From Neorhizobium alkalisoli (GTDB lineage: Bacteria; Pseudomonadota; Alphaproteobacteria; Rhizobiales; Rhizobiaceae): a stretch of 64,000 nucleotides of DNA. The position numbers and the translations under genes were made by a program. The DNA is taken from assembly GCF_007829835.1 (NCBI RefSeq), contig NZ_VIWP01000001.1, positions 806,001 to 870,000 on the forward strand, in the 5' to 3' direction. Below, in pieces: positions 15,687 through 39,533 of the stretch. The notes under the pieces are model-generated. The model did not search any database. It had not been told where the DNA came from and saw only the letters and a list, made by a program, of their open reading frames with translations. The first letter of the stretch is position 1; each line of letters begins with the position of its first letter.

Positions 15687-15752
15687 ATTTTCTACAAAAT
15701 TAGTAGAAAAAGAATGACCAGTCTTCCTCGAAGCGAGCCCTCTCCCTAGGCT
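15687..15752 (+). promoter_or_regulatory. Shared regulon promoter, copy A
   Basis: Contains the perfect dyad TTTCTAC (15689-15695) - 7 nt - GTAGAAA (15703-15709), then a conserved AAAGAATGACCAGTCTTCCT stretch and a TAGGCT -10-like box (15747-15752), 17 bp after a poor -35 (TTCCTC). Near-identical blocks occur at 27338-27402 and 34105-34169. The dyad centre lies about 60 bp before the expected +1, the usual position for a LysR-type activator, and it contains a T-N11-A core. It drives the FecBCD-type transporter operon 67 bp downstream. Confidence 0.75.
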
Positions 15753-15819
15753 TTTGTCACACGGTCGGAAACGACCTTCGTGCAATCCGCCTTCAGCTCG
15801 CGAGCGTCAGGGAAGCCCA

Positions 15820-16953
15820 ATGACCGATTCGAACTTCTTGCCCAAACCATCCATCGGGCGCCGCCAGGCGCTTGCCCTTTCCGGCGCTTTCCTGCTGAGC
15901 CCGCTGGCACAGAAACTGGGGGTTTCGGGCATCGCAAAGGCCGAGGCCGCCGAGCAGAAGACCATCACAATCACCGACGAACTCGGACGCGAAGTCACGC
16001 TCAAGGCGCCGATCAAGGCGGTCTATCCCGACCTCTGGTACCAGACCGAAATCGTCCGGGCGATTGGCGCCGGTGACACGATCGTGGCGATCGACCAGAC
16101 ATCCAACCCCAAAAAGAATACGGCAAACAAGGACTATTTCGCCAAGTTTGCGAGCCTTCCGGATGCGGGCAATTTCAACGGTCCCAACTGGGAGACCATC
16201 GCTGCGTCGGGCGCGGAAGTCTTCTTCACCCGTCGCAACGCTCCCTGGCAGGATGCAGTCGAGAAGCTGAAACCCTTCGGCATCGAGGTCGTCGTCGTCA
16301 GCACCTGGGACCCGAAGGTTTTGCGCGCGCAATTGCCCAATATCGGCAAGATCTTCGGCGCCGAGAAAGGCGCGGCCGATCTCGCCCAGCTTTACGACGA
16401 TATCGACAAGGTCCTGACCGACCACCTGAAAGGCGTGGAACCGAAGAAGGTCTATTTCGAAAACAACGCCGATTTCGTCACCTCCCTGCCGGGCTCCGGC
16501 TGGCATGACACGATCGTGCTCGGCGGCGGCAAGAACATTTTTGGCGACATCACCATCGCCAATACCGGCAGTGCCTCGGTGCACACCTACACGGTCGACC
16601 CGGTCGAGATCATCAATCGCAATCCCGATGTCATCATCCATAACGGTATCGACGGGCAGGCCGCCGGTTACGCGCCCTGGGACCAGGAACTGCTGGCCGG
16701 GCAGGCGGAACGCATCGTCAATCGCCCCGGCTGGAATGCGATCCAGGCCGTCCAGAACAAGAATGTCTTCGTCTTCAGCAATTTCTTCTTCTCGGCACTC
16801 GGAAAACAGATCGGCGCGCTGGCCGTTGCCAAATGGCTTTATCCGGATCGTCTCGCCGACGTGGATGTCGATGCCTATTTCGCCCGCTGGCTGAAGGCGC
16901 AGGGGATCGAGCCGCGGCCGGTCGCCGACTACGCCTACAAGCTTGGCGCTTGA
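15820..16953 (+). CDS. ABC transporter substrate-binding protein, BtuF/FhuD/FecB class, Tat-exported
   Basis: A 377-aa class-III binding protein for iron-chelate, cobalamin or similar ligands. It starts at 15820 (AGGGAAG upstream) with a twin-arginine signal: SIGRRQALALSG at residues 11-22, cleavage near AEA-AEQ. Two lobes with the typical ITDELGREVTL opening, an IVAIDQTSN segment, and NPDVIIHNGIDG in the second lobe. The following permease and ATPase genes make a complete importer. Association with monooxygenases and sulfur enzymes suggests the cargo may be an organic chelate or sulfur compound, not ferric siderophore as such. Tat export implies cytoplasmic folding, sometimes seen in this class. 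Confidence 0.88.
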   Translation: MTDSNFLPKPSIGRRQALALSGAFLLSPLAQKLGVSGIAKAEAAEQKTITITDELGREVTLKAPIKAVYPDLWYQTEIVRAIGAGDTIVAIDQTSNPKKNTANKDYFAKFASLPDAGNFNGPNWETIAASGAEVFFTRRNAPWQDAVEKLKPFGIEVVVVSTWDPKVLRAQLPNIGKIFGAEKGAADLAQLYDDIDKVLTDHLKGVEPKKVYFENNADFVTSLPGSGWHDTIVLGGGKNIFGDITIANTGSASVHTYTVDPVEIINRNPDVIIHNGIDGQAAGYAPWDQELLAGQAERIVNRPGWNAIQAVQNKNVFVFSNFFFSALGKQIGALAVAKWLYPDRLADVDVDAYFARWLKAQGIEPRPVADYAYKLGA

Positions 16954-16999
16954 GGCCTCCACCTCGCGACCTCCCTTTCCATCCATGACGAGAGAGACC

Positions 17000-18097
17000 A
17001 TGAGCTCAGTGCATTCTGATCCTCTGCCTTCCCGCCCGGCGGCAAGACCGCGCCCCGCCCATGACAAATACACGACCCAGAAGCTGGCGATCGCGCTCGG
17101 GATTGCGGCAGTCATCGCAGCCGCCCTTGCCGGCATCCAGATCGGAACCTCGGGCGCCACGCTGATCGACGTCCTGCAGACCTTCTGGGCAAAGATCACC
17201 GGCACCGTGCCGACGGACCGTGCCTCGCTCCTGATGCACAATGTCATCTGGGAGCTGCGTCTGCCGCGCGTTCTGCTTGCCATTCTCGGTGGCGCGGCGC
17301 TTGCCATTGCCGGCACGCTGTTCCAGGGCCTGCTGCGCAATCCGCTGGTCAGTCCCTATACGCTCGGCATCGCGCCGGCGGCGGCCTTCGGTGCATCGCT
17401 TGCCATCGTCGTCTTCGGCGCAACGGCGGGCAGCGCGGCGATCTCGCTGGTCATCGGCGCGCTGATCTTTTCCTTCCTCAACACCGCCCTTGTCCTGTCA
17501 CTCGCCTCGACCCGCAACCTGCATGCAACCACGCTCATCCTGGTCGGCATCGCGCTGTCGCAGCTCTTCGGCGCGCTCACCGCCTGCATCCAGTATTTTG
17601 CAGAGGACGAGGTGCTGGCCGCGATCGTGCGCTGGACATGGGGATCGGTCAATAATTCGGCCTGGTATCAGGTTCTGGTCCTTTTCCTGCTTCTCGCGAT
17701 TGCCTTCCCCTATATCCGCTTTCGCAGCAGCGCTCTGAACGCCATCGCCTTTGCCGGGGATGATTCCGCCAAGAGCCTTGGCGTCGCGGTCTCGACGGTG
17801 CGGCTGCAGACCATCGCCATTGCCGCAACGCTGACCGCCGTCACCATCGCCTTCACCGGCATTATCGGCTTTGTCGGGCTTGTCGCCCCGCATATCGCCC
17901 GGCTGGTCGTCGGTGCCAATCACCGTTTCCTCATCGCGTTCTCGGCGATCATCGGTGCCCTGCTTCTGGTCATCTCCGATGCGGTCGGCCGGTTGGTCAT
18001 CACGCCCGGTGTCATTCCGGTCGGCATCATCGATGCCTTGGTCGGCGCGCCGATTTTCCTCTACCTCATCCTCACTCGACAAAAGGCAATCGAATGA
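17000..18097 (+). CDS. FecCD/BtuC-family ABC transporter permease
   Basis: A 365-aa permease with ~10 TM segments and the FecCD landmarks: WELRLPRVLLAILGGAALAIAG (residues ~80-101), GLLRNPLVSPYTLGI (~108-122), and near the C-terminus FTGIIGFVGLVAPHIARLVVG (~285-305). The start at 17000 has GAGAGA just upstream; earlier in-frame starts lack one. A long basic, proline-rich N-terminal tail (~30 residues) precedes TM1. The last four bases overlap the ATPase start. It forms the channel of the importer begun by the Tat-exported binding protein. Confidence 0.92.
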   Translation: MSSVHSDPLPSRPAARPRPAHDKYTTQKLAIALGIAAVIAAALAGIQIGTSGATLIDVLQTFWAKITGTVPTDRASLLMHNVIWELRLPRVLLAILGGAALAIAGTLFQGLLRNPLVSPYTLGIAPAAAFGASLAIVVFGATAGSAAISLVIGALIFSFLNTALVLSLASTRNLHATTLILVGIALSQLFGALTACIQYFAEDEVLAAIVRWTWGSVNNSAWYQVLVLFLLLAIAFPYIRFRSSALNAIAFAGDDSAKSLGVAVSTVRLQTIAIAATLTAVTIAFTGIIGFVGLVAPHIARLVVGANHRFLIAFSAIIGALLLVISDAVGRLVITPGVIPVGIIDALVGAPIFLYLILTRQKAIE

Positions 18098-18951
18098 CCC
18101 TCAGGATTTCCTCACTCGAAGTCGGTTACGGCAAAAGACAGGTCGTCAAAGGCGCCAGCCTGAAAGTCGAGAAGGGCGAACTCGTCGGCCTTCTCGGATC
18201 CAACGGGTCCGGCAAGTCGACGCTGATCAAGACCATTGCCGGGATCAACAGCCAGACCAGCGGCTCCATCACCTGGAACGACGGCACGGACCTGACAAAA
18301 CTCTCGCGCCGGGACCTTGCAAAGATCGTCGCCTATGTGCCGCAATCGATCGGGCTTTCCTTCGGCCTCGACATCAGGGAAGCCGTCCTTCTCGGCCGCA
18401 CGCCCTATTTCGGCACGAAACCGCGGGACGAGGACTGGGCGCATGTCGAAGCCGCCATGCAGCGCATGGGCCTCGACGAACTCGGCGACCGCTCCGTGAC
18501 CGAACTGTCCGGCGGCCAGGGACAGCGGGTCCTGATTGCCCGCGCCCTTGCCCAGGATCCGGAAATCCTGCTCCTCGACGAGCCGACCAGCGCGCTCGAC
18601 ATCCGCTACCAGTGGCAGACGCTGGAAGTCGCCCGCGACGTGACGCGCAAGAACAATGTCGCCGCGATCATCGCAATCCACGATCTCAACCAGGCCGCCC
18701 GCTTCACCGACCGCGTCATATTCCTGCAGGATGGTGTCGTGATCGCCAATGGCCGTCCGGCAGACGTCTATTCGCCGGACCTGATCAAGCGGGTCTATGG
18801 CGTGGATGTCGAATTGTCGGTCCACAAGGGTTTTGTGCAGGTCCACCCGCTCTCCGAACGCGACCATTCGAGGCTCGGCCTCAATGCCACGACACCGGAC
18901 ATCGGCCACCTGCGGCGCCCTGCCGAACAGCGCGACCGTGTGACGGCCTGA
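18094..18951 (+). CDS. FepC/BtuD-type ABC transporter ATP-binding protein
   Basis: A 285-aa ATPase starting in an ATGA overlap with the permease stop. Walker A GSNGSGKST (residues ~34-42), signature LSGGQGQRVLIARALAQ, Walker B ILLLDEPTSALD, H-loop AIHDLNQAARF. The ADVYSPDLIKRVYGVDVEL C-terminal segment is typical for iron-siderophore/cobalamin importers. It completes the three-gene importer and is followed, 23 bp on, by an NtaA-type monooxygenase gene. Confidence 0.93.
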   Translation: MTLRISSLEVGYGKRQVVKGASLKVEKGELVGLLGSNGSGKSTLIKTIAGINSQTSGSITWNDGTDLTKLSRRDLAKIVAYVPQSIGLSFGLDIREAVLLGRTPYFGTKPRDEDWAHVEAAMQRMGLDELGDRSVTELSGGQGQRVLIARALAQDPEILLLDEPTSALDIRYQWQTLEVARDVTRKNNVAAIIAIHDLNQAARFTDRVIFLQDGVVIANGRPADVYSPDLIKRVYGVDVELSVHKGFVQVHPLSERDHSRLGLNATTPDIGHLRRPAEQRDRVTA

Positions 18952-18974
18952 CAATCATTTCGAGGGAAAACGAC

Positions 18975-20294
18975 ATGACGAACAAGTGGGCAGGCCGCCA
19001 AAGCGAACGCGGCCAGGGACTGGTGCTCGGCCTTTTGCTGGGCGGCACCGGGCAGGCGAAGAAACAGGGGCGCAACGGTCCGACGGACAATCTTCTCGAT
19101 ATCGATGCCTATGTCGAACAGGCGCAACAGGCCGAAAAAGGAAAGATACATACGATCTTCCTGGCGGACGCCCTCGTCACCAGCGAGACGGCGCCGAAAC
19201 CTGGTCTGGAGCCGGTCACTCTGTTGAGTGCGCTTGCGGCAAAAACCTCGCGGATCGGCCTGATCGGCTCCATCTCGACCTCCTTCACCGAGCCTTACAA
19301 TCTCGCCCGGCAGGTGCTTTCGCTCGATCACATTTCCAAGGGACGTGCGGGCTGGAACCTCGTCACATCATCGGCAGGCGAGAAGAACTTTGGCAAACCG
19401 CTGCCTGCCCATGACGATCGTTATGCTGTCGCCGAGGAATTTGCCGGCGTGGTGCAGGCATTGTGGGAGAGCTGGGAAGCGGATGCCGTCAGTTATGACG
19501 ATTTCGGCCGCCAGATCGTCGATGCGGGCAAGGTGCATCGTATCGACTGGAACAGCCGGCATTTTTCCGTCCAGGGTCCCCTCAACGTCTCGCGCAGCCC
19601 GCAGGACAGGCCGATCCTCGCCCAGGCCGGCTCTTCCACGGAAGGACGGCAGCTCGGCGCACGGGTGGCGGACGTGATCTTCACCACCGGCCTCACGGAG
19701 ACCGAACCATCAATCGAGCTTTACCGGGATTTCAAGGCGCGGGCCGCCGCCAATGGACGTTCGCCGGATGCGATCAAGATCCTGCCCGGCGTCGCGCCGG
19801 TCATCGGCTCGACCGACGAAGAGGCAAAACGCTTCTGGCAGAAAGTGATCGACGACATCGATTTCGAGGAAGGGCGCAAGTCGCTCGCCAGCCAGTTCGG
19901 CGGCGTCGATTTCGAGGGTATCGATCTCGACGCGGAAATCCCGATCAACGATCTGCCCCAGACCGCGAACGTGCAGGGCCGGCGCTCCCGTTTTGGCGTG
20001 TTCCGCGATCTGATCGAGAGCGGCAAGGTTCGCACGGTGCGTGATCTCATCATCTATCATTCCAGCGGCGCCGGTCACTGGTTCCCGATCGGCTCGGTCG
20101 AAAACGTCGCCGACCAGCTGCAGGACCGTTACGAGCGCGGCGCGACGGACGGGTTCAATTTCCTGGCCTTCACGCTGAAATACGAACTCGGCCTCTCCGC
20201 CGTGACGGATCACCTGATCCCCGAACTGCAGCGGCGCGGAATATTCCACCACGATTACCAGCACGAGACGCTCCGGCAGAATCTCGGCGTGTGA
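18975..20294 (+). CDS. FMN-dependent monooxygenase, NtaA/SnaA/DszA family
   Basis: A 439-aa luciferase-like (TIM barrel) monooxygenase that would use FMNH2 from a separate reductase. It starts at 18975 with GAGGGA ~7 nt upstream. Family features: IFLADALVTSE (~residue 60), LEPVTLLSALAAKTSRIGL, SLDHISKGRAGWNLVTS (~114-130), the HDDRYAVAEEF segment and RPILAQAGSS (~215). Members open nitrilotriacetate, EDTA, dibenzothiophene sulfone and similar substrates. It directly follows the FecBCD-type importer, so it probably acts on the imported compound. An apparent longer frame upstream overlaps the permease and ATPase genes and is not real. Confidence 0.9.
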   Translation: MTNKWAGRQSERGQGLVLGLLLGGTGQAKKQGRNGPTDNLLDIDAYVEQAQQAEKGKIHTIFLADALVTSETAPKPGLEPVTLLSALAAKTSRIGLIGSISTSFTEPYNLARQVLSLDHISKGRAGWNLVTSSAGEKNFGKPLPAHDDRYAVAEEFAGVVQALWESWEADAVSYDDFGRQIVDAGKVHRIDWNSRHFSVQGPLNVSRSPQDRPILAQAGSSTEGRQLGARVADVIFTTGLTETEPSIELYRDFKARAAANGRSPDAIKILPGVAPVIGSTDEEAKRFWQKVIDDIDFEEGRKSLASQFGGVDFEGIDLDAEIPINDLPQTANVQGRRSRFGVFRDLIESGKVRTVRDLIIYHSSGAGHWFPIGSVENVADQLQDRYERGATDGFNFLAFTLKYELGLSAVTDHLIPELQRRGIFHHDYQHETLRQNLGV

Positions 20295-20319
20295 CATAGG
20301 ACAGGACAAGGAGAGACGG

Positions 20320-21348
20320 ATGACACGCTATGTTATCATCGGAGCCGGCGCGGTCGGCGCCAGCCTTGCGGCGCAGTTCGAACTCAACGGCATCACTTAC
20401 GCACTCGTCGGCCGCGGTGCGCAGATCAGCCATATCAGAGAGCACGGCTTGAGTTATCAGCGGCCCTCGGGCACGCAGCAGATCAGGCTCAATGCCTTCG
20501 ATCTTGCCGATCCGCCCGAACTCAGGCCGGATGATATCCTCCTGCTGACGGTAAAGTCGCAGGATGCCACAGGCGCCCTTGCCTTCTGGTCCTGGCGGCC
20601 CGTTGCGGGCACCACGGGCACGGCCGCCGAAAACCTGCCGGTCGTCACCTTCCAGAACGGGCTCGCCACGGAGGCGGCCGCTCTCAGGACATTTGCCAAT
20701 GTCTATGGAGCAAGCATCCTGACGCCTGCCCGGTTTACCGAAACTGGCCAGGTCGTGGTCGGCGGCGATCCAGAGGTCGGCATCGTGACGGTCGGGCGGT
20801 TCCCCGCCGGGGCCGACGAGACCAGCAACCGGATTGCGGCGGACCTCTATCGCGCAGGATATCTCGCCGAACAGAGCAGTGACATCCGCCGCTGGAAATC
20901 GGCAAAACTGCTTCACAACGTCCGCAATGTCCTCGAGCTCTTCGATGGCCCTGCCGACCTTCGCGGCGAAATCGGCGAAGCTCTGGTGGACGAAGCCCGC
21001 CGCACGCTTCAGGCCGCGGGATACAGGCTTGCCGCACCTTCCGAGCGAACGATCGACATTTCGAACTGGCGCGTGGCACAGAACAGCGGCATCCATCCCG
21101 GCCAGCAATCGACCTGGCAAAGTTTTGCTCGCGGCACGTCGAGCGAGGTCGATTTTCTGAATGGCGAAATCGTTCTGCTTGGCCGGCTCCACGGCGTGCT
21201 GACGCCGTATAACGACGCCGTTCAGTTGCTTGCCGGAAAATTGGCGCAGCAGGGCAGCCTTTCGAGCACAGTTCCGCTTGACGTAATCCTTTCTCTCATT
21301 GACAACTCTGAATCAACGAGACAGACCGGTCTTACTTCTGTGCCGTGA
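20320..21348 (+). CDS. 2-dehydropantoate 2-reductase-like NADP oxidoreductase (ApbA/PanE family)
   Basis: A 342-aa protein with a GAGAVG nucleotide motif at residues 8-13, the LLTVKSQD segment carrying the family's catalytic Lys (~80), a TFQNGLATE loop (~110) and KSAKLLHNVRN (~195), followed by a helical ApbA_C domain. AAGGAGAGACGG precedes the ATG. It sits in the transporter/monooxygenase operon, away from pantothenate genes, and is longer than PanE (~300 aa), so a role on the imported compound's breakdown product is more likely than ketopantoate reduction. Substrate unknown. Confidence 0.8.
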   Translation: MTRYVIIGAGAVGASLAAQFELNGITYALVGRGAQISHIREHGLSYQRPSGTQQIRLNAFDLADPPELRPDDILLLTVKSQDATGALAFWSWRPVAGTTGTAAENLPVVTFQNGLATEAAALRTFANVYGASILTPARFTETGQVVVGGDPEVGIVTVGRFPAGADETSNRIAADLYRAGYLAEQSSDIRRWKSAKLLHNVRNVLELFDGPADLRGEIGEALVDEARRTLQAAGYRLAAPSERTIDISNWRVAQNSGIHPGQQSTWQSFARGTSSEVDFLNGEIVLLGRLHGVLTPYNDAVQLLAGKLAQQGSLSSTVPLDVILSLIDNSESTRQTGLTSVP

Positions 21349-21400
21349 TCGGCTGCCGGCCGGTCATGCGATATTGAAACGACCAATTCGAAGCGATGCC

Positions 21401-21970
21401 ATGAGAGAAGCCATATCAGACCAGATCCTCGCCACCGCCGGGGCGCTCTTCTATCGCGAGGGCATAAGGGCGGTCGGGATCGATCGCATCATCGAGGAAG
21501 CCAATGTCGCCAAGGCGACGCTCTACCGGCATTTTCCGTCGAAGGACCATCTCGTCGCAGCCTATCTGCAGGCGCGCCATGAGCGAGTGGTCCGGTCGCT
21601 GCAGGAGGTCGTGGATGCGGCGATGGCACCGAGAGAACAGATCGCGCTGATCTTCCAGCGTCTCCATGAAAAGGCCGACAGCCCGGAATTCCGTGGCTGC
21701 GCCTTTGCACTCGCGGTTGCAGAGCACGGTGATTCCGAGCGGGTCGTCTCCGTTGCCCGGACCCACAAGGCAATGGTGCGGGATATCTTTGCGGCCATCA
21801 TGACGAAAGCCTCCGGCAACCCGGATCAGCCTGCCGCGCATCTTTCGCTTCTTTACGAAGGTGCGCTGGCGACAGTCGCGGTCGGACGGGACCCGCAGGC
21901 AGTCCTCATCGCCCGAGACTGTGCCCTTTCCGTTTTCGACACCGCGAACCTGAACAACCAGCCCATCTGA
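21401..21970 (+). CDS. TetR-family transcriptional regulator
   Basis: A 189-aa regulator with the TetR DNA-binding segment GIRAVGIDRIIEEANVAKATLYRHFPSKDHLVAAYL (split over residues ~20-55; helix-turn-helix at VAKATLYRHF). The start at 21401 gives the normal distance to the helix-turn-helix; the ribosome site is weak (GAAGCG). It is embedded in an otherwise catabolic gene string, same strand, between the PanE-like gene and the isomerase gene. It may be a local repressor of the operon. The C-terminal ligand domain gives no clue to the effector. Confidence 0.87.
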   Translation: MREAISDQILATAGALFYREGIRAVGIDRIIEEANVAKATLYRHFPSKDHLVAAYLQARHERVVRSLQEVVDAAMAPREQIALIFQRLHEKADSPEFRGCAFALAVAEHGDSERVVSVARTHKAMVRDIFAAIMTKASGNPDQPAAHLSLLYEGALATVAVGRDPQAVLIARDCALSVFDTANLNNQPI

Positions 21971-21981
21971 AAGCAGCAGCA

Positions 21982-22584
21982 ATGACCAAGACCATCGACT
22001 ATTTCTTCAGCGTCGGTTCGCCCTGGGCCTTCATCGGCCTTGAAACCTTCGCAGCCCTGGCAAACGCTTATGGCGCGACGGTCCGCCCGCATGTCATTCC
22101 GCTGATCGAAGATAATGGCGGCATCTATTCCCGCAACCGGCCAGAAGCGCGCCGCGCCTACTGGACCAAGGATCTGAAACGCTGGGCCGCGCTGCGCGGC
22201 AAGGCGCTGAATTTCGACAACCGGGCCGCCCTTTCCGATCCGTCACCGGCAGGACTGCTGGTCATCGCCGCAAGCGAGGCCGGCGAAGACTGGCTGAAAC
22301 TGACACAGGCGCTGCAGGAAGCTTTTTGGGGACGCGGCGAGGACATCGGCAAGCTCGAGATCCGTCGTACGGTTGCCGATGCGGCCGGTTTCGACGGTGC
22401 TGCGCTGGAAGAACGGGCCCAGAGCGAGACCGTGCAGGCAATCCGCAAGGCCAGCTACGAAACGGCCAAAGATGCCGGCGTCTTCGGACTTCCGACCTTC
22501 CGCTACGAGGACGAACTCTATTGGGGACAGGACAGCCTGCCCTTCCTCGAACGCCATCTCAAGGGCGAGAAACTGGTCGCCTGA
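21982..22584 (+). CDS. 2-hydroxychromene-2-carboxylate isomerase / DsbA-family GST-kappa-like protein
   Basis: A 200-aa thioredoxin-fold protein of the HCCA-isomerase family: N-terminal IDYFFSVGSPWAFIGL with the family's SPW/SPY active serine (Ser13), and C-terminal GVFGLPTFRYEDELYWGQDSLPFLE, including the cis-proline loop and the WGQDSL segment typical of these glutathione-dependent enzymes. It starts 11 bp after the TetR stop. In naphthalene degraders the enzyme isomerises a hydroxychromene carboxylate; here, next to sulfur enzymes, a glutathione-dependent step on a thiol or conjugate is plausible. Family secure, substrate unknown. Confidence 0.82.
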   Translation: MTKTIDYFFSVGSPWAFIGLETFAALANAYGATVRPHVIPLIEDNGGIYSRNRPEARRAYWTKDLKRWAALRGKALNFDNRAALSDPSPAGLLVIAASEAGEDWLKLTQALQEAFWGRGEDIGKLEIRRTVADAAGFDGAALEERAQSETVQAIRKASYETAKDAGVFGLPTFRYEDELYWGQDSLPFLERHLKGEKLVA

Positions 22585-22664
22585 TCTGCTTGGCTCCGAG
22601 CCGACCTGCGTAGCGACAGCAGCGCAAGTCGGTACATGCCAGAAACATATTTCCGGAGTTTTCC

Positions 22665-23528
22665 ATGTCCCTTTCCCTTCCGGGTTCGCTCGTCTCCTCC
22701 GAATGGCTGGCGGCGCATCTTGATGATGCCAACCTCGTCATTCTCGACGGTTCGTTCAAGCTTCCGGGCGTCACGCCCATCGCCGCCGAAGATTTTGCCG
22801 CGCGGCACATTCCCGGCGCACGCTTCTTCGATATTGACAGGATTGCCGATCACGACACCACGCTGCCACACATGTTGCCCTCGGCCGCAGCTTTCGAGGG
22901 TTATGCCGCCGATCTCGGCATTTCCAACGACAGCATCGTCGTGGTCTATGACACGCCCGGCCTGATGTCGGCCGGCCGTGTCTGGTGGACGTTGCGGACT
23001 TTTGGTCATGACAAGGTCGCAGTCCTCGACGGCGGCCTGCGCAAATGGCTGGCGGAAGGCCGCCCCGTTACGGATGCTCTACCCGCTGTCACCAAAGGAA
23101 GCTTCCGCGCGAGCTTCGATCCCTCGGCCGTCCGCTCCAAGGCGCAGGTTCTCGGCAATCTCGACAGCCATGCCGAACAGGTGATCGACGCACGTTCCGC
23201 CGGACGATTTACCGCCGACGAAAAGGAAGCACGTCCGGGCCTGCGCTCCGGCCATATTCCGGGTAGTCTCAACCTTCCTTTCAACGCGCTTACCAATCCG
23301 GAGACCGGGGAGATCCTCGACATCCCGGCAATCCGCAAGGCTTTCGAGACAGCCGGCCTGGATTTTTCCAAGCCCGTCATCGCAAGCTGCGGTTCGGGCG
23401 TGACGGCAGCGGCCCTCACCTTCGGTCTGCATCTCGCGGGCAAGGATGATGTCGCCATCTATGACGGTGCCTGGACCGAATGGGGTCAGCCGGGCGATAC
23501 GCCGGTCGAAACGGGTTCCGCAAAATGA
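22665..23528 (+). CDS. sseA: 3-mercaptopyruvate sulfurtransferase (rhodanese tandem domain)
   Basis: A 287-aa protein with two rhodanese domains, the length of SseA. The active loop SCGSGVTAAA (Cys242) is the CGSGVT signature that separates mercaptopyruvate sulfurtransferases from thiosulfate rhodaneses (CRxGxR/T). Other features: HIPGARFFDID (~48-58), DTPGLMSAGRVWWTLRTFGH (~96-115), DARSAGRF (~175), GHIPGSLNLPF (~196). It transfers sulfur from 3-mercaptopyruvate to a thiol or cyanide, releasing pyruvate. Its stop overlaps the next start (ATGA) so it is co-translated with an FAD-linked D-hydroxyacid dehydrogenase, which could supply its substrate from mercaptolactate. Confidence 0.9.
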   Translation: MSLSLPGSLVSSEWLAAHLDDANLVILDGSFKLPGVTPIAAEDFAARHIPGARFFDIDRIADHDTTLPHMLPSAAAFEGYAADLGISNDSIVVVYDTPGLMSAGRVWWTLRTFGHDKVAVLDGGLRKWLAEGRPVTDALPAVTKGSFRASFDPSAVRSKAQVLGNLDSHAEQVIDARSAGRFTADEKEARPGLRSGHIPGSLNLPFNALTNPETGEILDIPAIRKAFETAGLDFSKPVIASCGSGVTAAALTFGLHLAGKDDVAIYDGAWTEWGQPGDTPVETGSAK

Positions 23529-24901: not shown

Positions 24902-24947
24902 ACCTGTCCGGCTCTTATGAAACGCCTCGACCGCCAAGGATGTCGCC

Positions 24948-27251: not shown

Positions 27252-27337
27252 TCAGGGCGGCGGCCAACAAAGGCCGCCGATTGCATTCCAAAGCCTCCTG
27301 AAACGCCAATCCCCGCATCGCCAAAAACCGCGACAAA

Positions 27338-27402
27338 ATAATCCACAAAATCCATAGAAAAAGAATAACCAGTCTTTCTCATCCGGACCGCCCTGCTAGG
27401 CT
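27338..27402 (+). promoter_or_regulatory. Shared regulon promoter, copy B
   Basis: Aligned without gaps to copies A and C through the dyad region. The left dyad arm is degenerate (ATCCAC), the right arm keeps ATAGAAAAAG, followed by AATAACCAGTCTTTCTC and a TAGGCT -10-like box at 27397-27402. It lies 316 bp upstream of the peptide-binding-protein gene, so that message would have a long leader. Confidence 0.7.
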
Positions 27403-27718
27403 GTGCGTCATGGCATTCATCACACCTGAGAGGAACGCGACATGACCGGAGAATGTACTAGCCCGCGCGCTCCCCGAGTCCAGCAGCCTTGCAAGGCCGC
27501 GCGATAACGGCAGCGCCGTAACCGCTTCCCGCCACTGAGCTGGCCTGAGAAGCGCTCTTCCATCAACAGGCAAGCGTCCAACCCGCCCGACCACGCAGTC
27601 GGCGGAAACGATGACCCATGCCCTGTTTTCTCAAATCGCCGGGAACGCGAAGTGCGACGCAAGGCAGCGTTGGCCCGAAGCCCAGGCAAGACAAAACCGA
27701 AAAATCAGGATATCTCCC
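27403..27718 (+). other. ~310-nt 5' leader of the dipeptide-type transporter operon
   Basis: No full gene fits here. Transcription from promoter copy B would begin near 27409, so the region is an untranslated leader with at least one well-formed mini-ORF (27442-27507). A preceding 11-codon frame starts at 27410, practically at the predicted +1, and ends in an ATGA overlap with the mini-ORF. The rest contains no obvious T-rich terminator. The upstream stretch 27252-27337, between bisC and the promoter, shows nothing recognisable. Confidence 0.5.
27442..27507 (+). CDS. Candidate 21-aa leader peptide with two cysteines
   Basis: ATG at 27442, stop TAA at 27505-27507. A good GAGAGGA Shine-Dalgarno sequence lies 7 nt upstream. 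The peptide begins MTGECTSPRA and ends QQPCKAAR, with Cys at positions 5 and 17 and several Arg/Pro. It occupies the early part of the leader of a putative sulfur-related transporter operon, where a cysteine-sensing leader peptide would make sense. No similar protein is recognised; it could still be chance in a GC-rich leader. Confidence 0.4.
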   Translation: MTGECTSPRAPRVQQPCKAAR

Positions 27719-29371
27719 ATGACCGAACGCTCCTCCCTTATCTCCCTCTCCCGTCGGCGCCTGCTGATCACGACCTCTGTGGCAGCCGCAGCCGCGCTGA
27801 TTGCTCCCTCGTTGTTCAACCCCGCTCAGGCTGCGGAAACCCCGCGTGATGGCGGCGACATCACCTTCCTGATCGACTCTCTTGGCGATACCTGGATCCC
27901 CAATAACAGCGCCATTTCCAGTTTTCAGGGCCATATCTGGGGCCATGTGACCGACAAGCTTCTTTATGTCGACGCAGACGGCAAGGTCAGCCCCTGGCTG
28001 GCGGAAAGCTGGGAGCAGAACGACAAGGCAACCGAATTCACGCTTCATCTGAAGAAGGGCGTGAGCTTCTCGGACGGCACGCCGCTCGATGCCGCGGCCG
28101 TCGTTGCCAATCTCGACATCTGGTATGCCGGCCGCAAGAACGAGGGCATCAACCCGATCGGGCTTTTCCCAAAGACCTATGAGCGCTCGGAGGCCGTCGA
28201 TGCCGCGACCGTAAAAGTCTTCTTCAAGAAGCCGACACTCGGTTTCCTGCCGACCCTCGGATATCACGGCTCGATCCTGATCTCTCCCAAGTCCATCGCA
28301 CAGCCCGCCTCGCAGCAGGCCGACCTCAGCAAGACCGCCGGCAGCGGCCCTTATGTGGTCGACAGCTGGAAGGAGGGTGATTTCGTCAAGCTGGTCAAGC
28401 GCAAGGATTACAACTGGGGTCCGGCAGCCGTCGGCCATACCGGCCCGGCCTTCCTCGACTCGATCACCTACAAGCTCGTCAACGAACCGTCGCTGCGTGT
28501 GGCATCCGTCCAGTCCGGACAGGCCGATGTCGCCTACAACGCCTCGCCTCAGGAACTGAAGTCGCTGAAGGAAGAGGGTTTCACCATCTCGACGCCACGT
28601 TATCTCGGCTTCGTCAACGGCTGGGCAGTCAATACCAAGTTCCAGCCCTATGACGACGTCAAGGTCCGCCAGGCGCTTCAGGCCGCGATCAACCGCCAGG
28701 AAATCATCGACACGGTCTATACGCCCGACTGGAAGCTCGCGACCTCCTTCATCCAGAGCAATGTCCCTGGTGCGACCGACCAGAGTGCTCTTCTCGCCTA
28801 CAATCAGGCCAAGGCGGAAAAACTGCTCGATGAGGCAGGCTGGGTGAAGGGTGCGAACGGCATCCGCAGCAAGGATGGTAAGCCGCTGGCAATCACGCTG
28901 CATTCCAATCCCTATCTCGCAACCTCGAAATCCGTCGACGAGCTGATCGCACAGCAGCTCAGCAAGGTCGGCTGGAAGGTGGATATCCGCGCCTATGACG
29001 TCGTCACCTTCGGCGAAAAGGTGAAATTCGCGGGCACGAACGTGCCGGCCTATGAAGTCACGCGCAGCTTCATCGATGCCGGCACGGTGGCGAGCATCCT
29101 CACCAATGCCAACAATGGCGAGAACTGGTTCGGGCTCGGCGAAAGCGACGCGAAGCTCAACGATCTGCGCGACCAGATCGCCGGTGCCGGCTCGATCGAA
29201 GAGCGCAGCCCGCTTCTGAACGACCTGCAGCACTACGTCCTAGACCAGGGCTATTTCATCCCGCGCACGCAGATCGTCCAGCGCATCTACGTGCAGTCGC
29301 CGACGCTGAGGGGCGAGGTCTATAACGGCGTCGCCTATGCCAGCTATTACACGGCCTTCATCGTCGATTGA
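27719..29371 (+). CDS. ABC transporter substrate-binding protein, family 5 (dipeptide/oligopeptide type), Tat-like signal
   Basis: A 550-aa SBP_bac_5 protein. Start 27719 with AGGA upstream; earlier in-frame ATG at 27611 would bury the signal. The signal is twin-arginine-like (SRRRLLITTS at residues 11-20) with cleavage near AQA-AET. Family features: WLAESWEQNDKATEFTLHLKKGVSFSDGTPL split across residues ~88-118, KTAGSGPYVVDSWKEGDFVKL (~201-221) and DVKVRQALQAAINRQEII (~312-329). It would bind a peptide, opine, glutathione-like or other small solute. Downstream genes supply permeases, ATPase and a monooxygenase, so the cargo is probably an organosulfur compound or conjugate. Confidence 0.9.
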   Translation: MTERSSLISLSRRRLLITTSVAAAAALIAPSLFNPAQAAETPRDGGDITFLIDSLGDTWIPNNSAISSFQGHIWGHVTDKLLYVDADGKVSPWLAESWEQNDKATEFTLHLKKGVSFSDGTPLDAAAVVANLDIWYAGRKNEGINPIGLFPKTYERSEAVDAATVKVFFKKPTLGFLPTLGYHGSILISPKSIAQPASQQADLSKTAGSGPYVVDSWKEGDFVKLVKRKDYNWGPAAVGHTGPAFLDSITYKLVNEPSLRVASVQSGQADVAYNASPQELKSLKEEGFTISTPRYLGFVNGWAVNTKFQPYDDVKVRQALQAAINRQEIIDTVYTPDWKLATSFIQSNVPGATDQSALLAYNQAKAEKLLDEAGWVKGANGIRSKDGKPLAITLHSNPYLATSKSVDELIAQQLSKVGWKVDIRAYDVVTFGEKVKFAGTNVPAYEVTRSFIDAGTVASILTNANNGENWFGLGESDAKLNDLRDQIAGAGSIEERSPLLNDLQHYVLDQGYFIPRTQIVQRIYVQSPTLRGEVYNGVAYASYYTAFIVD

Positions 29372-29407
29372 CCCCAAAAGCAACCGAGTAACGCAAGGGG
29401 GAACGGC

Positions 29408-30418
29408 ATGAGCAATGCTTACCTAACCTACGCCGGAAAACGGCTCGGCCAGGCGGTCGTCGTCATCCTTCTGGCCTATGTCTTCACCTTCGTGGTCGTC
29501 AGCATCCTGCCTGGCGACCCGATCACCAGCGTGCTGCGCAACCCGCAGAACGGCTTTAGCGAGCAGGAAATCGCCGAGATCATCGCGGCGCAGGGCCTTG
29601 ACAAGCCGATCATCGTGCAGCTGTGGAACGCCCTGTCCGGCTTCCTCACCGGCGATCTCGGCATGTCGATGCGGTCCACCCGGCCCGTCTCGACCCTGAT
29701 CGCCGAGGTTCTTCCCTCGACGCTGATCCTGGCATCGGCCGGGCTCACTGTCGCGCTGATCCTTGCGTTCGCGGTTGCCTATGGCACCCGCTTCGTGCCC
29801 AGGCGCTACGGCCAGGGATTGTTGCGGGGTTTCCCGTCGCTTTTCCTGTCGGTGCCGAACTTCGTCATCGGCCTCGTACTGATCCATCTTTTTGGTTTCC
29901 AGCTCGGTCTCTTCCGCGTCATCAATCCGAACAGTTTCTGGGCAACGCTGTTTGCGGCGATCGCGCTCGGCATTCCGGTTTCGGCCCAGATCGCCGAAGT
30001 CCTCATCGCCAATCTCGACAAGGAAGCGGAGCAGGAATATGCCGCGGTCGCCCGCAGCCGCGGCATCGGCCAGGCACGGCTTTTCGCAAAACACCTGCTG
30101 AAACCCGCCTCACTGCCGGTCGTCACCGCCGTCGCGCTGACCATCGGTGAGCTTCTCGGCGGCTCGCTGATCACCGAAACCGTCTTTGGACGCACCGGCG
30201 TTGGCAGTCTCGTGCAGCGCTCCGTCAGCACCCAGGACCTGCCCGTGCTGCAGGCGGTCGTTTCGCTCGGGGCTGTCGTCTTCGTGCTCGTCAACCTGAT
30301 CGCCGACCTTCTCTATCCGCTGCTCGACCCGCGCGTAAAAATCCTCGGCGGCGCGAAACGCCAGCCGACCACGGCGGACGAACCCTCCATCGGTGCGACC
30401 AAGGCGGTGACCCCATGA
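29408..30418 (+). CDS. ABC transporter permease, DppB type
   Basis: A 336-aa permease with the DppB-type N-terminus (first TM, then VSILPGDPITSVLRN, a periplasmic loop, then a 5-TM core). The permease signature includes QEYAAVARSRGIGQARLFAKHLLKPA (~residues 210-235, EAA loop) and the LIGELLGGSLITETVFGRTGVGSLV-like segment (~245-268). AAGGGGGAACGGC precedes the ATG. The end overlaps the next permease by four bases. Component of the dipeptide-type importer. Confidence 0.92.
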   Translation: MSNAYLTYAGKRLGQAVVVILLAYVFTFVVVSILPGDPITSVLRNPQNGFSEQEIAEIIAAQGLDKPIIVQLWNALSGFLTGDLGMSMRSTRPVSTLIAEVLPSTLILASAGLTVALILAFAVAYGTRFVPRRYGQGLLRGFPSLFLSVPNFVIGLVLIHLFGFQLGLFRVINPNSFWATLFAAIALGIPVSAQIAEVLIANLDKEAEQEYAAVARSRGIGQARLFAKHLLKPASLPVVTAVALTIGELLGGSLITETVFGRTGVGSLVQRSVSTQDLPVLQAVVSLGAVVFVLVNLIADLLYPLLDPRVKILGGAKRQPTTADEPSIGATKAVTP

Positions 30419-31257
30419 CCTTCATTTCCGCATCATCCGGCATCAATCGCGTCAACTGGCTTGCGGCGCTTCGCATGCCGCCGATCGTGGCACTTTCCTT
30501 TGTCATCATCGCGATCGTGATTGCCTGGTCGGTCGCACCCGGCCTCTTTACCAGCCATAGCCCAGTCGCCGGCGTGCCGGCGGACAAGCTTCTCCGCCCA
30601 AGCCTGGCACACTGGTTCGGCACCGATCACCTCGGCCGCGACGTCTATACTCGCGTGGTCTATGGCACGGCCTCTTCCGTCTCGAGCGCGCTTGTCGCCG
30701 TCGTGATCGGGGTGGTCGTCGGGGGGCTTATCGGTCTTTTTGCCGGCTTCCTCGGCGGCTGGGTCGATGTCGTCTTCGCCCGGCTGGTCGATGTGCTTCT
30801 GTCGATCCCGAAATTCCTGCTCGCCGTGATCATCGTCACCGCGATCGGCTTCGAGACCATCAATGCCGCCATCGCCACCGGCGTTTCGGCCGTGGCGATT
30901 TTTGCCCGCGTCACCCGCGCCGAAGTGTTGAAGACCCGGCAGGCGACCTTCGTCGAGGCGGCATATCTCTCCGGCGGATCGCGCTGGTACATCCTCTGGC
31001 GGCACGTGCTTCCGAATGCATCGCGCTCGGTGCTGCCGCTGGCCGTTCTGCAGTTCGGTGAATCCATCCTGGTGATCGCCAGCCTTGCCTTCCTTGGCTA
31101 CGGCGACCCGCCGCCTGCCTCCGACTGGGGCCTGCTGATCTCGATCGGCAAGGATTATCTGAAATGGCCGTGGCTCGTTTATGCCCCCGCCTTTGTCACC
31201 ATCTTAACCGTCCTCTCAGTGAACAGGATCAGCCGATGGCTTCGCAAAACAGACTGA
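30415..31257 (+). CDS. ABC transporter permease, DppC type
   Basis: A 280-aa permease. The N-terminal cytoplasmic stretch and TM1 are followed by the DppC hallmark HWFGTDHLGRDVYTRVVYG (residues ~62-80), then the EAA loop (FVEAAYLSGGSRWYILWRHVLPN, ~180-202) and FGESILVIASLAFLGYGDPPP (~217-237). ATGA overlap with DppB-type gene. Its last 22 bases overlap the start of the dual ATPase gene, so translation of the operon is tightly coupled. Confidence 0.92.
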   Translation: MTFISASSGINRVNWLAALRMPPIVALSFVIIAIVIAWSVAPGLFTSHSPVAGVPADKLLRPSLAHWFGTDHLGRDVYTRVVYGTASSVSSALVAVVIGVVVGGLIGLFAGFLGGWVDVVFARLVDVLLSIPKFLLAVIIVTAIGFETINAAIATGVSAVAIFARVTRAEVLKTRQATFVEAAYLSGGSRWYILWRHVLPNASRSVLPLAVLQFGESILVIASLAFLGYGDPPPASDWGLLISIGKDYLKWPWLVYAPAFVTILTVLSVNRISRWLRKTD

Positions 31258-32963
31258 CCGCCACGCTCATTGACGCAATGACACTGGCGCCCCTACCGCA
31301 ACCCGCTGCCGCACCGCTGCTCGAGGTCAACGACCTTTCGGTTTCCTATGGCAAACAGGAAGTCGTCCGCGGTGTCGGCTTCGAGCTTGGACGCGGAAAA
31401 AGCCTGGCGCTGATCGGCGAATCCGGGTCCGGCAAATCCACGATTGCCCGTGCCATCCTGCGGCTGCTGCCCGCAGGCGCCACGGCGCGCGGAGATGTCG
31501 GCTTTGACGGACAGAACCTTCTGGCGCTTCCCGAGCGCCGGTTCCGTCTCTTAAGGGGCCGCGCCATCGGTTTTGTTCCGCAGGATCCCGGCAACGCGCT
31601 CAATCCGGTCCGAACGATCGGCGTGCAGGCAATGGAAGCCGCAGCGCTGACGGACGAGCCGAATGCGGCCATCCGCAAGGCCCTCATCCTCGAAACTTTC
31701 GCGCAGGTCGGGCTCGACAATCCGCAGCGGGTCTACGACTCCTATCCGCATCAGCTCTCCGGCGGCATGCTTCAGCGTGTGCTGATCGGCCTTGCCGTCC
31801 TGCCGCGGCCGGCACTGCTGGTGGCCGACGAACCCACCTCCGCGCTCGATGTGACGATCCAGAAACGGATCCTCGACCTCCTGTCGCGCCTGCAGCACGA
31901 TCTCGATATCAGTCTGCTTCTCATCACCCATGACCTCGCCATTGCAGCGGAACGGACGGATAGTCTCGTTGTTCTGAAGAACGGCGTGGTGCAGGAGGCG
32001 GGCCGGACATCGTCCGTCTTCTCCTCACCGGCCTCGGCCTATGCCAGAAAGCTGCATGCTGACGTTCCGGCCCTCAATCCGGACCGTTATGCCCGGCTGC
32101 GCCAAACCGGCCTGCGCCTGCGCGATGCCGACGAAGCACCGAAGATCGAAGTCAGTGCCGTCACCAAAAAATTTGCGGTCGACGGCAAGATCCTGACCGC
32201 GGTCGATGACGTCTCCTTCTCGGTCCCGGCCGGCACCACCCATGCACTGGTCGGAGAATCCGGCTCCGGCAAAACAACGACGATCCGGCTTCTGCTGGGT
32301 CTCGAAGAGCCGGATAGTGGCACGATTTCCGTTGCCGGCGAGCAGGTTTCCGGTCGCTCGGCCACATCGCTCCGCGCCGTCTGGCGGCATCTTCAGCTGG
32401 TCTACCAGAACCCGTTCACCTCGCTCGACCCGACCTGGAGCGTCGAACACCTCGTCCGCGAGCCACTCGACCGCTTCAAAATCGGCACGCCGGAAGAACG
32501 CACGAAACATGTTCGTGAGGCGCTCGCCAATGTTGGGCTTGCCGACCATCTTTTGACCCGCAAGCCGGGCGCCCTGTCAGGCGGCCAGCGGCAGCGCGTG
32601 GCGATTGCCCGCTCGCTGGTGCTGAAACCCGACGTCATCGTTCTCGACGAACCGACATCGGCACTCGATGTCAGCGTCCAGGCCGATATCGTCGAAGTGC
32701 TGCTATCGCTGCAGGCAAAACTCGGCCTCACCTATATCTTCGTCTCCCATGACCTGGCGCTGGTCCGCCAGCTCGCTCACACCGTCTCCGTCATGCAGCG
32801 AGGCAGGATCGTCGAGCACGGCAACGTCACAGATATTTTTGGCAATCCGCAGCACGCCTATACCGCCTCGCTGCTGGAATCGATCCCATCCGGCATCACC
32901 GAACCGGCGCGCAAGCCGCAACCGGTATCCCGGCAGCATCTGAGACAGGAGCAGTTGGCATGA
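31236..32963 (+). CDS. Fused dual ABC ATPase (DppD-DppF type)
   Basis: A 575-aa protein with two complete ATPase halves. First half: Walker [10 protein letters not shown] (~60-68), LSGGMLQRVLIGLAVLP, LVADEPTSALDVTIQ. Second half: Walker [11 protein letters not shown] (~345), LSGGQRQRVAIARSLVLKP, VLDEPTSALDVSVQ. In most peptide importers these are two genes. The start at 31236 has AGGA upstream and lies inside the DppC-type gene; MTLAPL at 31278 is an alternative. Energises the dipeptide-type importer. The last four bases overlap the following monooxygenase start. Confidence 0.93.
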   Translation: MASQNRLTATLIDAMTLAPLPQPAAAPLLEVNDLSVSYGKQEVVRGVGFELGRGKSLALIGESGSGKSTIARAILRLLPAGATARGDVGFDGQNLLALPERRFRLLRGRAIGFVPQDPGNALNPVRTIGVQAMEAAALTDEPNAAIRKALILETFAQVGLDNPQRVYDSYPHQLSGGMLQRVLIGLAVLPRPALLVADEPTSALDVTIQKRILDLLSRLQHDLDISLLLITHDLAIAAERTDSLVVLKNGVVQEAGRTSSVFSSPASAYARKLHADVPALNPDRYARLRQTGLRLRDADEAPKIEVSAVTKKFAVDGKILTAVDDVSFSVPAGTTHALVGESGSGKTTTIRLLLGLEEPDSGTISVAGEQVSGRSATSLRAVWRHLQLVYQNPFTSLDPTWSVEHLVREPLDRFKIGTPEERTKHVREALANVGLADHLLTRKPGALSGGQRQRVAIARSLVLKPDVIVLDEPTSALDVSVQADIVEVLLSLQAKLGLTYIFVSHDLALVRQLAHTVSVMQRGRIVEHGNVTDIFGNPQHAYTASLLESIPSGITEPARKPQPVSRQHLRQEQLA

Positions 32964-34048
32964 CCATCGCGGCACCCGCGGGCACGCTGCCTGCATATTT
33001 TCACCCGAAACAGCGGCTCGGCTTCAACACCCGCGTCTCGTTCAACGACGATGCCGGGCCGGCGCAGGGGCTGCGCGATGGCATCGAACTGTTCAAGGAG
33101 GCCGAGAGGCTGGGCTACCAGTCCGGCTGGGCCTATCAGCGGCATTTCGACCACTATCTCTCCTCCCCACTGCCGTTCTTCGCCGCTGTCGGCCAACATA
33201 CGCAACGCATCACCCTCGGATCGGCGGTCATCCCGATGCGCTATCAGGACCCGATCCTGCTTGCCGAAGCGGCCGGCACGACGGATCTCCTGATTGACGG
33301 CAGGCTTGAGCTTACCATCGCGACCGGTGCCAATGGTGCCTTCGACGCCGTGTTCGGAACCGCCGATACCGACGCCCGCACCGAAGCAAAACGCCGTCAG
33401 GCCCGTTTTCTCGCAGCGATTTCCGGCGAGGTCCTACACACCGTCACCGAACCGGTCCAGGGTGCAGCGCTGGGGGCCGAGCTACGTGTGACGCCGCACA
33501 GTCCGACGCTGCGAAACCGCATCCGGCAGGGTTCGGCCAGCCTTTCCTCGGCGATTCAGGCCGCGGAACTCGGCATCGGCCTGATTACCGGAACCGTCCT
33601 GCACGACCATGAGGAAGGCGAAAGTTTTGGGGCGTATCAGGCCCGGCTGATCGAGGCCTATCGCAGCACCTGGCGCCGCATCTGGCAAACGGAACCGCCA
33701 TCGGTCGCCGTCGCCGCTTCCATTCTGGTCGGCACCACGGCCGAGCTTCGGGAAAAATATGCGGCCTATGATCTCGACCGCCGAACCAATGGCATCGCCG
33801 CATCGCGTCCGAAAGGTGCACTTGCGCCTCCAGGCACACCCGCTGGCGCGCAAATATCTCCGGTCTTCCAGGGAACGCCCGATCAGGTGATCGACGCGGT
33901 CTTCAACGATCCCGGCCTCGCGGCCGCAGACGAGGTTGTCCTCTTCCTGCCACCAGCCTTCGGGCTTGCTGAAAATGTGCGGCTGCTCACCGATCTCGCC
34001 GGCACGGTCGCGCCGCTCTTCGGCTGGTCGCCCGCCCCCGCCGCTTAA
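32960..34048 (+). CDS. Luciferase-like FMN-dependent monooxygenase
   Basis: A 362-aa luciferase-like protein starting in an ATGA overlap with the dual ATPase gene, so it is a member of the importer operon. Features: LGFNTRVSFNDD near the N-terminus, EAERLGYQSGWAYQRHF (~47-63), RITLGSAVIPMRYQDPILLAEAAGTTDLLIDGRLELTIATG region (~83-125), TLRNRIRQGSASLSSAIQAAELGIGLITG (~185-213). It lacks the full SsuD/NtaA signatures, so is a divergent group. The probable role is oxidative opening of the compound imported by the preceding transporter, using FMNH2 from the reductase at 36668-37228 or another. Confidence 0.85.
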   Translation: MTIAAPAGTLPAYFHPKQRLGFNTRVSFNDDAGPAQGLRDGIELFKEAERLGYQSGWAYQRHFDHYLSSPLPFFAAVGQHTQRITLGSAVIPMRYQDPILLAEAAGTTDLLIDGRLELTIATGANGAFDAVFGTADTDARTEAKRRQARFLAAISGEVLHTVTEPVQGAALGAELRVTPHSPTLRNRIRQGSASLSSAIQAAELGIGLITGTVLHDHEEGESFGAYQARLIEAYRSTWRRIWQTEPPSVAVAASILVGTTAELREKYAAYDLDRRTNGIAASRPKGALAPPGTPAGAQISPVFQGTPDQVIDAVFNDPGLAAADEVVLFLPPAFGLAENVRLLTDLAGTVAPLFGWSPAPAA

Positions 34049-34073
34049 GCGGCAAAACCGCAATCGCGATTGC
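34041..34073. terminator. Two adjacent perfect palindromes at operon end
   Basis: CCGCTTAAGCGG (34041-34052, containing the stop codon) and GCAATCGCGATTGC (34060-34073) are perfect 12- and 14-bp palindromes. They end the dipeptide-type operon just before promoter copy C. There is no T-run, so termination is possible, not certain; a protein-binding role is also possible. Confidence 0.35.
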
Positions 34074-34104
34074 CCAACCTCGTTCAAGGACAGCGGCAGA
34101 GAAT

Positions 34105-34169
34105 ATTTTCTACATAATCGATAGAAAAAGAAAGACCTGTCTTCCTGACTTCCCTGTCGCTGCTTAACC
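34105..34169 (+). promoter_or_regulatory. Shared regulon promoter, copy C
   Basis: TTTCTA (34107-34112) and TAGAAA (34122-34127) form the dyad, followed by AAGAAAGACCTGTCTTCCTG and a TTAACC box at 34164-34169, which aligns with TAGGCT of copies A and B. It is 63 bp upstream of the SsuD-like gene at 34233. Confidence 0.72.
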
Positions 34170-34232
34170 TTCCCTCATTGCCTGAAAATATCAGACCCAA
34201 AATCCCGGTCTCAAAATCTCAAGGAGCGACCC

Positions 34233-35336: not shown

Positions 35337-35454
35337 TGCCGGTGGTCCGGCACCGCTACCGGACCAGCACTCCCGCTTCCTTTCTCCAATGCAGCCGGCC
35401 ATCCGTCTTCTCGTGACGGGTGCCCTCTCTTCCTGAAGCCAGAAGGCAAACCGC

Positions 35455-36636: not shown

Positions 36637-36667
36637 CCCGGCAAACCCATTTTTGAAAGGAACCTGA

Positions 36668-37228: not shown

Positions 37229-37320
37229 GCGATGACCGCTCCCGCTTTCATCGAAACAGTAACGTGCGGAATGTGGGTCATGAATAGAGCCCCAGCGATC
37301 TCCGATACATATCTCTGATC

Positions 37321-39395: not shown

Positions 39396-39533
39396 CATAT
39401 CGGCAGGAAAAGACGGATAACGAGAAAAAACGGCTCAGTTCGGCTCGCTATTTGAAGGTTTATTCCTTCTCCAGACAACCGCTCCGTGGCTGAATGCTGC
39501 GTTAATTCGGGGAGGTTGCCCAGGGAGAATACG

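Follow-up and report, generated by a model that had tools for sequence, protein, structure and literature searches.

We analysed a 64,000-nucleotide stretch of the Neorhizobium alkalisoli genome (contig NZ_VIWP01000001.1, positions 806,001 to 870,000; hereafter the window, in whose coordinates all positions are given) that contains three operons, each preceded by a copy of the same promoter block. The block holds two different dyads, not one, and two regulator genes of the cluster, tetR and rrf2, encode candidate readers for them. The features are as follows.

15687..15752, + strand: promoter block copy 1, 67 bp 5′ of a Peripla_BP_2 gene; dyad 1 at 15689-15709, dyad 2 at 15711-15728, -35 box CTTCCT at 15723-15728, -10 box TAGGCT at 15747-15752
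27338..27402, + strand: promoter block copy 2; dyad 1, imperfect, at 27340-27360, dyad 2 at 27362-27379, -10 box TAGGCT at 27397-27402
34105..34170, + strand: promoter block copy 3, 62 bp 5′ of an SsuD-like gene; dyad 1 at 34107-34127, dyad 2 at 34129-34146, -10 box TAACCT at 34165-34170
15820..27251, + strand: operon 1, from the Peripla_BP_2 gene to a BisC-type S/N-oxide reductase gene
27611..34048, + strand: operon 2, a peptide/nickel-type ABC importer and a luciferase-like monooxygenase
34233..40751, + strand: operon 3, encoding SsuD-like, SfnB-like, MsuE, 2-hydroxyacid dehydrogenase, SsuD-like and SfnB proteins
21319..21336, + strand: extra dyad 2 copy AGACAGACCGGTCTTACT, within the 3′ end of apbA and 64 bp before the tetR ATG
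21401..21970, + strand: tetR, Pfam TetR_N E 2.4e-15, candidate reader of dyad 2
40752..41198, - strand: rrf2, Pfam Rrf2 E 5e-38, CymR-like, candidate reader of dyad 1

Three operons behind one promoter block

Operon 1 encodes a FecBCD-type importer (Peripla_BP_2 binding protein, FecCD permease and ATPase), a DmoA/NtaA-type monooxygenase, an ApbA-like protein, the TetR regulator, a DsbA-like protein, a 3-mercaptopyruvate sulfurtransferase, a GlcD-like protein and a BisC-type S/N-oxide reductase. The binding protein of operon 2 is related to TIGR04028 and its monooxygenase to TIGR04027, both under the family cut-offs. In operon 3, the SfnB-like protein has an acyl-CoA-dehydrogenase fold and MsuE is a flavin mononucleotide (FMN) reductase. 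The rrf2 gene adjoins the end of this operon on the opposite strand; about 2.4 kb past it is the end of a full SsuD gene (575 bits, cut-off 518). Judged from these gene families, the cluster likely scavenges sulfur from organic compounds.

A sequence-only reading of the stretch had placed three near-identical blocks 5′ of three operons, and each block lies where it had been put. They align almost without gaps, as that reading also held, with 37 of 74 columns invariant. A sequence profile built from the three copies (R1) was run on the organism's own 7.03 Mb genome and on relatives. In the own genome the three blocks are the sole matches at E ≤ 10; their own R1 scores prove nothing, since the profile was built from them. 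The independent test comes from the 35 other genomes of the genus, of which 12 contain a total of 27 copies at E ≤ 1e-4. Among 24 genomes of the same order none matched at E 1e-4. The best hit there (E 5.5e-4; G043:C238:4433-4472, locus L024) belongs to another family of the order and is a partial block match, with one mismatch in dyad 2.

The arrangement is conserved along with the block. All three copies lie on one contig in G003, G013 and G034, separated by 11.6-11.7 kb and 6.7-6.8 kb; the corresponding distances in the window are 11.65 and 6.77 kb. The operon context is that of the window in 11 of the 12 block-bearing congeners, some with just copies 2 and 3; G023, whose copy is at the end of a contig, was excluded from operon mapping. 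Letters specific to one copy are retained across species, for example AAATAATCCA in copy 2. A dispersed repeat, the alternative that the genome scan proposed by the sequence-only reading was meant to expose, is ruled out, because R1 finds only three copies in 7.03 Mb and the block is conserved in congeners. The shared promoter, the sulfur theme and the local regulon put forward by that reading are borne out by the family calls and by the restriction of full copies to these three.

Two dyads and their candidate regulators

Dyad symmetry was scored over 32 copies of the block (35 matches minus three overlapping or partial rows, a weak match in L055 being kept). Dyad 1 has the form TCTAY-N7-RTAGA, with 0.75 of arm pairs symmetric against at most 0.40 at shifted centres, and dyad 2, AGAAWGAC-CN-GTCTTYCT, likewise scores 0.75. 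Part of this had been described before. The longer dyad TTTCTAC-N7-GTAGAAA of the sequence-only reading is perfect in copy 1, has one mismatch in copy 3 and more than two in copy 2, which has only one mismatch to the shorter TCTAY-N7-RTAGA. The AAAGAATRACCAGTCTTYCT core reported alongside it is conserved, but consists mostly of the second palindrome, AGAAAGAC-CN-GTCTTTCT, which had been missed. All eight pairs of dyad 2 match in 5 of the 32 copies, and 6, 6 and 7 of the eight in the window copies.

Both dyads have fixed places relative to the promoter. Dyad 2 covers CTTYCT, read as the -35 box, and TAGGCT or TAACCT, read as the -10 box, follows 17-19 bp past it where found (17-18 bp in the window). 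The centre of dyad 1, which in copy 1 contains TAC-N7-GTA, lies about 60 bp before the inferred start. The distance between the two centres is constant, at 20.5 bp in copy 1 or roughly two turns of the helix. By itself the exact dyad pattern is uninformative, since TTTCTAC-N7-GTAGAAA with up to two mismatches occurs at 8 places in the own genome against 15 for the backwards control.

Searching with the dyad 2 pattern revealed the further copy at 21319-21336, which is predicted to be the autoregulatory operator of tetR. Across ten tetR orthologue loci (71-100% identity, our own included), the AGAC-N2-GTCT core lies upstream exactly in six and with one mismatch in two; in the remaining two, L067 and L068, there is no upstream dyad 2 and tetR is downstream of a block-bearing promoter. 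The exact core is found in 9 of the 30 homologue loci of this first set, with 0 exact elsewhere in those loci. A second set, comprising 18 homologues of 35-45% identity from an order-wide search of 297 genomes, has it at most 420 bp upstream in 9 loci and 0 times in 55.6 kb of flanks; the own and G039 loci, found in both searches, were counted in the first set only. By helix-turn-helix class of the TetR protein, the exact core accompanies 16 of 24 members of one class and 2 of 24 others (Fisher 6e-5, relatedness ignored), the class being defined by a G[IV]DR[IV] helix motif picked after seeing the data. With the ten cluster orthologues removed, the class still gives 10 of 14.

The distribution of the regulator follows that of the block: a TetR orthologue of at least 71% identity is present in 10 of 13 block-bearing genomes and in 0 of 23 block-less congeners. 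In G012 and G032, which have no close TetR, the GTCTT arm that copies in TetR-bearing genomes retain is gone from copy 3; this is weak support, since some TetR-bearing genomes have only four of eight pairs in copy 3. With up to two mismatches allowed, the dyad 2 pattern gives scattered matches in genomes without the cluster as well. Dyad 2 is best assigned, as the likely reading of this pattern, to the TetR encoded inside operon 1.

The window Rrf2 exceeds the TIGR00738 cut-off (114 bits against 73.3), its Rrf2 domain spans the whole protein, and it carries cysteines at positions 91, 100, 103 and 109, which may bear on an iron-sulfur cluster of the kind held by Rrf2 Fe-S sensors. It reaches 88.4 bits with the NCBIfam CymR model, whose cut-off is 195; it is not filed as CymR and might at most function in a similar way. 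Weak block matches near rrf2 in four other congeners (G009, G019, G020 and G025) led to solitary dyad 1 sites, where dyad 2 is missing. The surroundings of 21 Rrf2 orthologues (403 kb) contain 11 exact TCTAY-N7-RTAGA sites in 8 loci (Markov mean 0.15) and 0 at all other spacings from 0 to 15; some of the 11 are orthologous to each other, so that the independent events are fewer. A set of 80 Rhizobiaceae rrf2 loci (663 kb), whose genomes partly overlap the first, contains 16 exact sites in 13 loci (Markov mean 0.18), with 0 at N0-N6 and N8 and 0-3 at N9-N15.

Two classes of Rrf2 differ in this respect. In the class of 55-60% identity, 5 of 6 loci have the dyad 1 site between 262 and 573 bp upstream of rrf2, beside a divergent permease gene; in L216 the permease is over the Pfam CitMHS cut-off and below that of NCBIfam DASS, and the other permeases were judged by eye. 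At 41-47% identity no dyad 1 is found within 1 kb upstream of rrf2 in any of 11 loci, and this class was rejected as a reader; one exact site lies about 3 kb off, in L224. Helix residues 37-45 read SKKFLDAIL in 6 of 6 members of the former class and PKKFLEQIL in 9 of 11 of the latter. Some Rrf2 proteins of 74-77% identity have P in place of the first S and retain DA. Glutamate at that place in the recognition helix sets the specificity of IscR. G032, in which a close Rrf2 is missing, has degenerate copies of dyad 1. NsrR, also of the Rrf2 family, recognises a 23-bp site whose central region is 7 bp long (PMC9338935), and dyad 1, as a putative Rrf2 operator, has the form of such a long palindrome.

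Solitary dyad 1 sites and competing explanations

A dyad 1 model (R2) was built from 24 of 30 distinct rows, leaving out degenerate, weak, partial or gapped ones (two rows of L052, those of L055 and L056, and the second copy in each of L048 and L050). It finds nothing in the own genome beyond the three blocks. In congeners, solitary dyad 1 sites stand 5′ of SsuA-like, MetQ-like, luciferase-like monooxygenase and DASS/CitMHS-type permease genes. Thirteen regions were fetched for such a site (L203-L215), and in eight a sulfur-type gene starts within about 260 bp (L205, L206, L207, L208, L210, L211, L213, L214). Six of these genes were family-tested, with L205, L207 and L208 above the NCBIfam cut-off and L206, L210 and L213 below it; those of L211 and L214 were judged by eye. 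Further cases are L135 (SsuA, above cut-off), L139, L144 and L145. Several solitary sites lie about 14-99 bp before a called start codon. The sites in L205, L206, L207, L211, L213, L216-L218, L220 and L221 suggest a wider sulfur regulon.

The window also has a remnant of this kind:

45974..45991, + strand: decayed dyad-1-like site, left half TCTAC kept and right half not, 5′ of a transporter operon

R2 did not find it in the window. The operon that follows encodes a family-3 binding-protein transporter with an 86% identical relative in G021, where an intact solitary dyad 1 lies at about the same distance from the gene.

Several observations count against assigning dyad 2 to TetR and dyad 1 to Rrf2. 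For dyad 2, the next-best centre, shifted left by two bases, reaches 0.65 where the chosen one has 0.75; the dyad is weak in copy 2 (6 of 8 pairs, as in most of copy 2 across genomes); and it has only 4 of 8 pairs in copy 3 of G003, G024 and G034 despite their TetR orthologue. For dyad 1, five of the 13 solitary-site regions (L203, L204, L209, L212, L215) have no sulfur-type gene directly downstream, and among the family calls below their NCBIfam cut-off are the SsuA of L210 and, narrowly, of L213, the MetQ of L206 and the DASS permease of L216. Exact N7 sites are not above a backwards-pattern control genome-wide in most genomes, which makes dyad 1 informative in context and not as a bare count. 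In 22 genomes of the genus there are 58 N7 sites (14 in blocks), 8 N8 and 40 N6 sites; at N6 the two arms stay in the same codon phase, so that this count may be inflated. No exact dyad 1 is found in 13 of the 21 Rrf2 neighbourhoods or in 67 of the 80. Of 27 loci whose Rrf2 is at least 72% identical, 24, the window included, likewise have none in the 1 kb upstream of rrf2 (L057 offers only 550 bp), so that Rrf2 autoregulation would apply only in some relatives. Finally, the T-N11-A spacing also fits a LysR protein.

The sequence-only reading had in fact proposed a single activator of the LysR/CysB type, citing a T-N11-A dyad near -60. That dyad is present in copy 1 and is not specific to LysR; the proposal itself is not supported, as there are two putative operators, each better explained by the cluster-encoded TetR or Rrf2. 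Nor did a search for a co-occurring LysR gene succeed: there is no LysR domain in the 60 scanned of the 165 listed window open reading frames (ORFs), and none in the window among the genome matches listed. In a modified form, dyad 1 would be the site of a CysB-like LysR sulfur activator encoded elsewhere, with dyad 2 as its activation half-site or as TetR's. TAY-N7-RTA obeys T-N11-A, LysR proteins usually bind near -60, where dyad 1 is centred, and the genome has 107 LysR matches. However, dyad 2 is even-centred and unlike dyad 1 in sequence, and paired LysR half-sites are not known to differ as these dyads do. Where dyad 1 recurs upstream of rrf2 (G013, G018, G028), LysR genes lie at least 20 kb off among the matches listed, and the solitary sites shortly before start codons are placed as for a repressor. 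With none found in the 60 scanned window ORFs or, among the matches listed, near some solitary sites, LysR was set aside as the dyad 1 reader, and we consider its involvement unlikely. Because dyad 1 stands before sulfur-type genes and upstream of rrf2 in one Rrf2 class and not in the other, its best candidate reader is likely the CymR-like Rrf2 encoded at 40752-41198 (-).

Alternatively, TetR might act alone through dyad 2, given the overlap of that dyad with the -35 box and its recurrence before tetR, with dyad 1 serving as an A+T-rich upstream promoter element without a protein of its own. The composition of dyad 1 is A+T-rich and its position that of an UP element; but the dyad also occurs alone, with a strict N7 around rrf2, and 5′ of sulfur-type genes that have no dyad 2, which leaves this explanation quite improbable. 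The least probable, and already disfavoured, is that the blocks are one recently duplicated promoter and hardly informative on control. The presence of three near-identical copies in a 19-kb span would be expected from it, whereas the copy-specific letters kept across species, and the retention of the block in 12 other congeners, before the same operons in the 11 mapped, would not.

Other observations concern operon 2 and the start of the window. The leader of operon 2 contains a small ORF, MTGECTSPRAPRVQQPCKAAR (27442..27507, + strand), that includes cysteine codons and is preceded by a ribosome-site-like AGGA of its own. The short hairpin 3′ of it has an outer pair in which both bases differ between the window and its relatives. 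An ORF stands at this place in 9 of 12 loci read, the window included; in L048 and L050 it is different but Cys-rich, in L049 it is absent, and L051 and L052 have only a different 14-aa ORF. As a lead, it is possible that the ORF encodes a cysteine-responsive leader peptide. At 6871-9111 (+) lies a gene whose 746-aa product joins a LacI-type regulator to an ABC-type solute-binding domain. It has 14 homologues of 65-89% identity with about the same length and domains, which marks it as a real conserved family, and two distant homologues (46 and 32%) also combine LacI and binding-protein domains.

A proposed two-input model and its known relatives

Taken together, our comparisons make it fairly probable that the shared block combines a TetR operator, dyad 2, with an operator of the CymR-like Rrf2, dyad 1. 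TetR would repress at dyad 2, over the -35 box, until binding of a compound imported or oxidised by the cluster released it; it would also control its own gene. Rrf2 would report on the supply of sulfur or cysteine and most likely repress when sulfur is replete, since many of the solitary dyad 1 sites are found about 14-99 bp ahead of a called start codon; the direction of its control at -60 is the weakest step of the model. Two repressors would together form an AND gate, turning the three operons on when sulfur is short and substrate is present.

More tentatively, and with rather less confidence than in the paired operators, we propose a Rhizobiaceae-wide organosulfur regulon under an undescribed Rrf2 (DA for EQ in the recognition helix) with a new operator, TCTAY-N7-RTAGA, to which a stacked TetR adds the AND gate over three operons and the Cys-codon leader of operon 2 a third check. 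If true, this regulon would be the Rhizobiaceae answer to CysB and CymR. The paired-operator model, if right, would provide a candidate regulator, an operator motif, a family-wide testable regulon and a compact natural two-input promoter present in three copies. In the literature searched, the ways in which rhizobia detect a lack of sulfur and select organic sources of it are poorly mapped. A search at title and abstract level, covering few subscription papers, returned no Rrf2 sulfur or sulfonate regulon in Rhizobiaceae.

The tauA promoter of Sinorhizobium meliloti, from the same order, is organosulfur-inducible; the activator TauR is needed for taurine induction, and the main text of that report does not mention Rrf2 (PMC4254191). 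The nearest solved relatives of the window Rrf2 are the CymR proteins of Bacillus subtilis and Staphylococcus aureus (3t8r, E 3.6e-19; 2y75, E 6.6e-19). CymR regulates cysteine metabolism. The window protein differs from it in a stretch that holds four cysteines but is cysteine-free in CymR, and in the recognition helix, with DA for EQ; it is far under the CymR cut-off and appears to serve an organosulfur cluster in an alphaproteobacterium. In enterobacteria, CysB and Cbl switch on sulfonate genes when sulfate or cysteine is short. The physiological job would be the same as that of the window system, but those regulators are LysR-type, with no counterpart in the 60 scanned window ORFs.

For the TetR, the QdoR/YxaF structure 1sgm of Bacillus subtilis matches at E 8.8e-7, and the nearest solved structures are of other TetR proteins (3g7r, E 7.1e-24; 3jsj, E 1.7e-21). 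QdoR and LmrA recognise an AGAC-YR-GTCT-type box, and the window TetR resembles this type in its TetR_N domain and in the palindrome at its own gene and at three putative target promoters. QdoR is a repressor of its own gene and of a catabolic one (PMC8481877). Unlike the operators of QdoR and LmrA, the predicted TetR operator of the window is stacked beside a second dyad.

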